Assembly: GCA_003557545.1 (NCBI GenBank)
Contig: PWOD01000189.1
Span: 1-18,763, forward strand
Direction: 5' to 3'
Source: a bacterium
Lineage (GTDB): Bacteria > T1Sed10-126
DNA length: 18,763 nt
Shown here: in pieces, positions 705 to 9,289 of the stretch
Numbering within the stretch: the stretch's first letter is position 1
How the letters are laid out: each line of letters starts with the position of its first letter
Position numbers and translations under genes: made by a program
Notes under the pieces: generated by a model
Told to the model about the DNA's origin: nothing
What the model saw: only the letters and a program-made list of their open reading frames with translations
Database searches by the model: none

Positions 705-795
705 GGAGAGGTGGCTGAGTCCGGTTGAAAGCGCCGCACTCGAAATGCGGTATGCCCTTTAGTGGGCATCGTGGGTTCAAATCCCACCCTCTCCG
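705..795 (+). tRNA. tRNA-Ser (anticodon CGA, reads UCG)
   Basis: The cloverleaf can be drawn by eye. The acceptor stem GGAGAGG (705-711) pairs with CCTCTCC (788-794), with G795 as discriminator, the expected serine identity base. The anticodon stem is CCGCA/TGCGG with loop CTCGAAA, placing the anticodon CGA at 741-743. A long variable arm (ATGCCC/GGGCAT) marks it as a class II tRNA, and the T arm GTGGG-TTCAAAT-CCCAC is canonical. CCA is not encoded (the next bases are CTT), so it must be added after transcription. It sits about 20 bp after yidD in the same direction and may be processed from the same transcript. Confidence 0.97.
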
Positions 796-7386: not shown

Positions 7387-7875
7387 TCAGGGCTGCAGCC
7401 GGCCCTCTGTCTCTCCTTCAACCATAATCATTACCTCGTCAACCGTAGAAAACTGGTTCAAACTTCTGGTAACCTGATCCTTTATAGCCAGCACCCAGGC
7501 CGAACCACCCGGTGGCTCGATCTCAGAACTAAAATCAACCCGGGCAACCCCCTCATCTATATCCAGTGACAATAGATCGGTTGCCGGATCAATCGCTGTT
7601 TGGAATCCCTGTTCTTCTTCTGCAGGAGTTGGTCCGGCAAGCAGTTGTTTCAACATTAATTCTTCCGGCTGCTGATCCGCTTCTAACCAGAGCTCCCTGG
7701 TTATATACTGTAAACTCTCCTGACCGTCAGAAACCACTATGAAGTACAATTTGACCGGCGTCCGCTCAACCTCCGCCTCGAAAAACTGTTCTTGCCGATC
7801 CGGGAGAATAAACTGAACCAGATAAACCAGCGCCAGAATAATTATCAATCCATAAATAATTTTTTTATAAAAAAT
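7387..7875 (-). CDS. GerM-domain exported/membrane-anchored protein, possible ATT start
   Basis: GerM domains occur in spore-coat/germination lipoproteins and in other secreted proteins; the biochemical role is not settled. The family pattern is visible: LKQLLAGPTPAEEEQGFQTA, LLSLDIDEGVARVDFSSE and the closing LNQFSTVDEVMIMVEGE. A single hydrophobic N-terminal helix (LIIILALVYLVQFIL) anchors or exports it; there is no lipobox. The first conventional start is TTG at 7848, which has no clear ribosome binding site and cuts into the helix. The frame stays open upstream, and a perfect AGGAGGG (complement of 7882-7888) lies 7 nt from an in-frame ATT at 7875; this would add the basic flank IFYKKIIYG. 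I therefore extend to 7875 tentatively. It converges with mnmE and diverges from recR. Sporulation itself is not shown by this gene alone. Confidence 0.85.
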   Translation of the reverse strand: MFYKKIIYGLIIILALVYLVQFILPDRQEQFFEAEVERTPVKLYFIVVSDGQESLQYITRELWLEADQQPEELMLKQLLAGPTPAEEEQGFQTAIDPATDLLSLDIDEGVARVDFSSEIEPPGGSAWVLAIKDQVTRSLNQFSTVDEVMIMVEGETEGRLQP

Positions 7876-8045: not shown

Positions 8046-8660
8046 GTGAAAAGTTTTGAAGCTGCCGTTGACCGGCTCAGCAGATTACCCGGAATAGGTA
8101 AAAAATCAGCGCGCCGGATAGTTTTCCATCTGCTGTCGATAGCTGATGACCAGGTTGAAGAATTAACCGACGCCATCATCACGGCTAAATCTCAACTGGG
8201 ATACTGCAAACAATGCTACGGATTAAGTGAGACAGAGCTCTGTAAAATCTGTTCTAACAGCCAGCGCAACCCTGACCAGCTCTGCGTTGTTGCCTCGCCT
8301 GAAACAATTTTAAAAATCGAAAATACCGGAAAATTTAACGGACGGTATCATGTGCTGCGAGGACTCATATCACCACTGGACGGCATCGGCCCACAGCAGC
8401 TGACAATCAGCCAGTTAATCAACCGGCTGACAACCCCCAATGAAACTATTCAGGAGGTAATTTTTGCCTTTAATCCAACTAATGAGGGGGAAGTAACGAT
8501 CAACTACCTCCGCCAGCGGCTCCGGGATTATCCGATCAAACTCAGTCAGCTGGGCTACGGTCTGCCGGTTGGCAGTGATCTTGAATATACCGACAGAATG
8601 ACCCTTAATAAAGCTTTTGAAAACCGGATCAAACTTAACCCGGAGGCCGAAAACAGCTGA
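8046..8660 (+). CDS. recR: Recombination mediator protein RecR
   Basis: RecR acts with RecO (and RecF) to load RecA on gapped single-stranded DNA. The 204-residue protein shows all family parts: helix-hairpin-helix LPGIGKKSARR (14-24), a four-cysteine zinc site (C54, C57, C66, C69), a Toprim domain beginning near residue 78 (LCVVASPETILKIE), the characteristic SPLDGIGP, and FNPTNEGEVTINYL near its end. The start is GTG 8046 with GGAGG (8034-8038) upstream. The stop TGA overlaps the CTG start proposed for comEA (CTGA), implying translational coupling. In many genomes recR directly follows ybaB; here it follows mnmE and the divergent gerM gene. Confidence 0.97.
   Translation: MKSFEAAVDRLSRLPGIGKKSARRIVFHLLSIADDQVEELTDAIITAKSQLGYCKQCYGLSETELCKICSNSQRNPDQLCVVASPETILKIENTGKFNGRYHVLRGLISPLDGIGPQQLTISQLINRLTTPNETIQEVIFAFNPTNEGEVTINYLRQRLRDYPIKLSQLGYGLPVGSDLEYTDRMTLNKAFENRIKLNPEAENS
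8642..8646 (+). promoter_or_regulatory. Ribosome binding site supporting a CTG start for comEA
   Basis: GGAGG inside the 3' end of recR lies 10 nt before CTG 8657. The comEA frame has a stop at 8636-8638, and no ATG, GTG or TTG occurs between that stop and the CTG, so this site decides the start. Confidence 0.7.
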
Positions 8661-9289
8661 CCAACAACGCCCGCCTGGCTATTTTATTACTGGCAGCAGT
8701 TATCACAGGAGCGGCGGCTGCTTACCTGTTTTTTCCGCCGCTGCCGCCCGAGATAAGAACAACTAAAATTACCGAGCCGGCCCCTCGGATAACTGACTCT
8801 GAAGCTCCAGCGCCGCTCATCCGGGTAACAATTAATGGTTCAGGGATAACTAATCCAGGTATCTATCAGCTACCCGAGGACAGCGCGGTTATCGACCTGA
8901 TAGAAACCGCAGGAGGGCTCACACCAACCGCCTACAGGCTGGGACTTCCGGTCCACCAAAAACTCCATAACGGTCTACATCTAACTATTCCCAGCCAGAC
9001 TGCTTTTGATAAGATTAGACGGGGGCAACGGCCGTTAACCAGAACAGATTTAATCGCTTTTCAACTTGAAGAACAATCCGAGGAGCCCTCCTCAAAACTA
9101 ATAAATATCAATACAGCGGACCGAACAACTCTACAAAAACTGCCCGGCATCGGTGAGGAACTGGCCGCCAGAATTATCAACAGAAGAGAGGAAATCGGTG
9201 ATTTTCAAACCCCTGAAGAGATTCAGCAGGTCATGGGGATCGGCCGCGGAAGATATCGTCAGATAGCCGAACTAATTACGGTAAATTAA
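8657..9289 (+). CDS. comEA: ComEA-like competence/DNA-binding protein with SLBB and HhH domains, CTG start
   Basis: ComEA binds incoming double-stranded DNA outside the cytoplasmic membrane during transformation. I translated this frame directly: it is open for 210 codons and ends at TAA 9287-9289. An N-terminal membrane helix (ARLAILLLAAVITGAAAAYL, about 6-25) is followed by a Pro/Thr-rich linker, an SLBB domain at about 56-112 (IRVTINGSGITNPGIYQLP) and a helix-hairpin-helix pair at about 148-208 (INTADRTTLQKLPGIGEELA, then QQVMGIGRGRYRQI). This order is diagnostic of Firmicute ComEA. No ATG, GTG or TTG occurs in frame before the late VMGIG codon, so automated callers may miss the gene. CTG 8657 overlaps the recR stop and has GGAGG 10 nt upstream. 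comEC and comEB are not next to it; uraA converges 12 bp downstream. Confidence 0.92.
   Translation: MTNNARLAILLLAAVITGAAAAYLFFPPLPPEIRTTKITEPAPRITDSEAPAPLIRVTINGSGITNPGIYQLPEDSAVIDLIETAGGLTPTAYRLGLPVHQKLHNGLHLTIPSQTAFDKIRRGQRPLTRTDLIAFQLEEQSEEPSSKLININTADRTTLQKLPGIGEELAARIINRREEIGDFQTPEEIQQVMGIGRGRYRQIAELITVN

Follow-up and report, generated by a model that had tools for sequence, protein, structure and literature searches.

Which codon begins the comEA-like gene that follows recR when the 5′ part of its frame holds no ATG, GTG or TTG? The window, as we call the whole 18,763-nt stretch of DNA analysed here, belongs to an uncultured bacterium represented by a draft metagenome assembly of 239 contigs (G000). 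We compared it with G001, a genome of another genus in the same family and the sole relative in this phylum-level, two-genome comparison. The features at the recR-comEA junction are as follows.

8046–8660, plus strand: recR, GTG start; its stop TGA (8658–8660) overlaps the comEA start; TIGR00615 match at 7.9e-69, over the cut-off
8642–8646, plus strand: Shine-Dalgarno core GGAGG within the recR 3′ end, 10 nt upstream of CTG, from the sequence and a Shine-Dalgarno scan
8657–8660, plus strand: CTGA, the putative comEA start CTG overlapping the recR TGA; GTGA at the homologous G001 site
8657–9289, plus strand: comEA, 210 residues; transmembrane segment at about 7–25, SLBB domain at 56–94, helix-hairpin-helix (HhH) domain at 146–208

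The start site of comEA

The comEA frame (8639–9289, plus strand) is opened by an in-frame TAA at 8636–8638 and closed by a TAA at 9287–9289. The first ATG, GTG or TTG among its 216 codons is codon 198 (counted from 0), and for this reason the list of open reading frames contains no ATG-, GTG- or TTG-started frame of at least 80 residues here. Given how often the genome uses each sense codon, a run of 197 codons free of all three would have a probability of ~2e-4, a figure noticed post hoc in a genome of ~2000 genes. An earlier reading of the sequence alone had held that such a gene would escape callers limited to these codons, and this is borne out: Prodigal ignores CTG, ATT and ATA by design (PMC2848648).

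The same sequence-only reading placed the start at a CTG sharing bases with the recR stop and preceded by a Shine-Dalgarno core, an arrangement that we find exactly as described. The CTG occupies 8657–8659 and the recR TGA 8658–8660, giving a four-nucleotide NTGA stop/start overlap, and the GGAGG lies upstream with a spacer of 10 nt. In a census of NTGA overlaps across the sampled parts of both genomes, no gene other than comEA has a plain CTGA start; the other CTGA matches were set aside, having a canonical start either adjacent (mostly CTGATG, starting at the ATG) or far upstream. A genome search found GGAGG-N10-CTGA 17 times and the reversed control 12 times, which is background, so the evidence for the comEA start is the gene context and not the motif.

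In G001, too, comEA follows recR, and GTGA stands at precisely the homologous position (L005:1498); the stretch matching the window's Shine-Dalgarno contains GGGGAGCC/GGGG there. The start-codon comparison with relatives that the earlier reading had proposed, in which an ATG at this position would have spoken against CTG, thus yields a GTG, and near the N-terminus of the G001 gene there is no other canonical start. The two ComEA proteins (210 and 213 residues) are 43% identical, and their alignment begins at residue 1 (MTNNARLAILLL to MTTDSRFVVILV) and stays gap-free for ~40 residues, through the part ahead of the transmembrane segment and the segment itself. Upstream of the start, the frames of the two genomes share nothing evident (PGGRKQ versus KSSKSRRGAAAG). 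Homology therefore begins at codon 1 of the CTG reading, where the orthologue has its own start codon, and the identical position of the GTGA together with the gapless alignment from residue 1 fixes the comEA start at 8657, an assignment that these comparisons support well. The codon itself differs between the genera, GTG in G001 and CTG in the window, and the CTG of comEA is thus not conserved.

Identity of the product and its competence setting

The comEA frame is certainly coding. Its product scores over the Pfam cut-offs for HHH_3 (1.2e-17; 64.2 bits against 27) and for SLBB (1.6e-10; 41.1 bits against 27), the SLBB domain lying between the transmembrane segment and the HhH domain. The hydropathy profile has one maximum, 2.38 at residues 7–25, and elsewhere stays at or below 0.67, as predicted for a single N-terminal transmembrane segment. 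In the PDB, the product is matched best by two chains that carry the name ComE operon protein 1 (8dfk and 8dss). The ComEA identity claimed earlier from the transmembrane-SLBB-HhH layout is upheld by these matches. The search with HMMs that had been suggested as a check went both ways, since the two domain models pass and the NCBIfam comEA models TIGR01259 and TIGR00426 stay below their cut-offs (68.6 against 152.35 and 49.5 against 53.1), as does the G001 orthologue with the NCBIfam comE models. Judged by its predicted architecture the product is a ComEA, though not a member of the curated NCBIfam families, and its function would be the one that this architecture suggests.

The ComEA of the comE operon in Bacillus-type bacteria likewise has a predicted N-terminal transmembrane anchor, an SLBB-type domain and a C-terminal HhH DNA-binding domain. 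There the usual neighbours of comEA are comEB and comEC, whereas in the window comEA follows recR and its product falls under the NCBIfam comE cut-offs. Partner machinery is present in both genomes, each with ComEC (two loci), DprA and several T2SSE/pilus ATPases.

The organism had been expected to look as if it lacked a competence DNA receptor once comEA was skipped, and this expectation fails. Contig C106 encodes a 293-residue triple-HhH protein with an ATG start whose score of 207.8 clears the NCBIfam comEA cut-off (152.35); annotation would call it ComEA and so credit the genome with a receptor. The genome also encodes further HhH proteins that have ordinary starts. The CTG-started product is nevertheless the only SLBB-plus-HhH protein found in the assembly, and skipping it would lose the one such form.

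Secreted or lipoprotein-type HhH proteins with three and two HHH_3 copies are clustered on C106 of G000 (L124:1122–3944, plus strand) and on C47 of G001 (L153/L154). The cluster adjoins proteins resembling the C-terminal metallo-hydrolase part of ComEC, one of which was tested and gave no Pfam match, and the G001 version adjoins a second ComEC. It is possibly a second unit for DNA uptake or extracellular DNA processing.

Other apparent non-canonical starts in the lineage

The case for a conserved CTG start is stronger for another gene of the window than for comEA.

111–473 (frame 108–473), plus strand: rnpA, RNase P protein, apparent CTG start; Pfam Ribonuclease_P match at 2.3e-22

The rnpA gene is normally essential. 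Its CTG at 111 comes two codons after the TAA (102–104) of a ybaB-like gene, and in G001 rnpA the corresponding codon is likewise CTG (L152, minus strand, 4499). Neither rnpA frame has an ATG, GTG or TTG before codon 50 (G000) or codon 34 (G001). In each genome a NeuB-like synthase gene has CTG three codons past the upstream TGA (G000 C87, L120:5789, plus strand; G001 L164:13903, minus strand). Here the next canonical start in G001 does not come until codon 23, and in G000 a GTG five codons past the CTG is a possible alternative. The sequence leading to this CTG in G000, GGGGTGA-N6-CTG, is much like the GGGGTAA-N6-CTG of rnpA. Because rnpA and the NeuB-like gene share their CTG codon across two separately assembled genera, CTG starts are, on this comparative evidence, very likely real in the lineage.

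Further genes appear to use other codons. In G000 infC appears to start with ATA after GGAGGT, and G001 has ATA at the same codon with a TTG just upstream as an alternative there (infC at L249:1035 and L250:2010, both minus strand); such a start fits the known non-canonical start of infC. A PD-(D/E)XK nuclease gene of G000 (C208, L127:10580, plus strand) has an apparent ATT start; in its G001 orthologue an ATG stands equally far from the first conserved residues. The G001 lipoprotein gene before dprA has a CTG or ATT start. Three candidates were rejected: DprA and a Bipolaricaulota protein start with TTG, and SelD has an in-frame UGA.

For a census of start codons, stop-to-stop frames from ~670 kb of G000 and ~580 kb of G001, slightly less than a third of either genome, were compared with each other in both directions. 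We retained the frames that had an orthologue in support and a stop upstream, 188 in G000 and 193 in G001. Once false cases had been removed by eye, those lacking a canonical start close to the conserved N-terminus were comEA, rnpA (CTG), infC (ATA) and the nuclease gene (ATT) in G000, and rnpA (CTG), the NeuB-like gene (CTG) and the lipoprotein gene (CTG/ATT) in G001; the canonical starts in G000 were ATG (114), GTG (29) and TTG (21). Run on 237 frames taken from a mixed set of GTDB loci, the same pipeline yielded a single ATA case, itself doubtful, and no CTG. The lineage thus shows a surplus of non-canonical starts, 7/381 against 1/237, that is suggestive and not significant (Fisher p = 0.16), the orthologues among them not being independent. 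CUG has been put at 0.024% of bacterial starts, with a yield of ~0.9% of that of AUG in E. coli (PMC11497404). Against that rate, two CTG starts in 188 frames have P of about 0.001, and the rate itself is probably too low, given that gene callers disregard CTG (PMC2848648). A broader reading, which we put forward tentatively and think doubtful, is that this little-sampled phylum uses CTG, ATT and ATA starts at ~2% of genes as against well under 0.3%. They would form a regular class of low yield, perhaps tuned by IF3, with an essential gene among its members and with its rnpA and NeuB-like cases conserved between genera. If the ~2% were true, a whole gene set would be absent from the annotations of the phylum.

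These cases bear on whether the CTG at 8657 is the true codon. The C could be a consensus error of the metagenome assembly, the true codon being GTG as in G001, or else ATG or TTG. Single-base errors in assembled contigs are rare, and the CTG codons shared by rnpA and the NeuB-like gene in separately assembled genera also tell against an error, which we regard as unlikely. What speaks for it is the draft state of the genome, the GTG in the relative, and the great rarity of the change it would spare us, since only one of 5,080 reconstructed GUG starts had switched to CUG (PMC5622118).

It is also conceivable, although very improbable, that a recent GTG-to-CTG mutation silenced comEA and left a young pseudogene. 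The frame is unbroken through its 210 codons and keeps both domains as well as the transmembrane segment, the Shine-Dalgarno and the stop/start overlap are retained, and the normally essential rnpA apparently uses CTG; on the other side, other HhH proteins could substitute, and at the E. coli yield of CUG expression could be nearly lost (PMC11497404).

A RecR-ComEA fusion made by −1 frameshifting ahead of the recR stop would suit a comEA frame that is the −1 frame of recR and stays open for six codons ahead of the CTG, but is extremely improbable: the last recR codons (CCG GAG GCC GAA AAC AGC TGA) hold no X_XXY_YYZ heptamer, the open stretch upstream is not conserved, G001 has an ordinary GTG, and RecR would precede a membrane anchor.

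A model for initiation at the CTG

With good though not full confidence we favour the reading in which an intact comEA, the second cistron of recR-comEA, starts at CTG 8657 by termination-reinitiation with the standard fMet initiator tRNA and at low yield. Ribosomes ending recR at the TGA would sit on the overlapping CTG, the GGAGG would keep the 30S subunit at the junction, and the initiator tRNA would begin comEA with methionine at low efficiency. As the lineage appears to tolerate CTG, ATT and ATA starts in several genes, their products should be scarce and may be sensitive to the level of IF3, and initiation of comEA probably has this sensitivity too.

The genome has an anticodon arm of the initiator type, GGGCTCATAACCC, at a place where tRNA-Met genes are called, and the arm is standard, on which ground an unusual initiator tRNA was rejected as the cause of CTG use. 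A search of the genome for a loss of IF3 revealed nothing obvious; IF3, looked at as a whole protein, is ordinary and full-length. It is from the reinitiation geometry, the standard initiator arm and the ordinary IF3 that we infer low-yield reinitiation on the CTG, possibly IF3-tuned. In E. coli, reinitiation needs the initiator tRNA and IF2 and is reduced by excess IF3, less so with a Shine-Dalgarno (PMC2268962), and IF3 represses non-canonical starts such as the GTC of sigR (PMC5472188).

The junction resembles ATGA and GTGA pairs with four-nucleotide overlaps (PMC10666635, PMC2268962), in which the TGA shares bases with the next start and the Shine-Dalgarno lies within the upstream gene, and G001 shows GTGA in the same geometry as the window's CTGA. 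Unlike in those pairs, the first base in the window is C, a much weaker start codon, and the coupling would follow from the likeness. With infC (ATT/ATC) and Streptomyces sigR (GTC), both IF3-repressed (PMC5472188), comEA shares an intact gene that callers miss or misplace and an expected low yield; it differs in its codon, CTG, and in the gene concerned, and here control by IF3 would be an extension from those cases.

The CTG-started comEA is well supported but is essentially a known kind of exception. As an example of a CTG start passed over by standard callers it is clean and backed by alignment, and from it we came to the further cases in the lineage, rnpA included. Absence calls in metagenome genomes, for competence genes and even for the RNase P protein, can be artefacts of the start codon, and an all-frame comparison of two related genomes recovers skipped genes cheaply.

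Other features of the window

Two further features lie in the window. Between mnmE and recR, the opposite strand encodes a GerMN-domain (sporulation and germination) protein (7387–7848, minus strand), and yidD is separated from the gene after it by a tRNA gene (705–795, plus strand).
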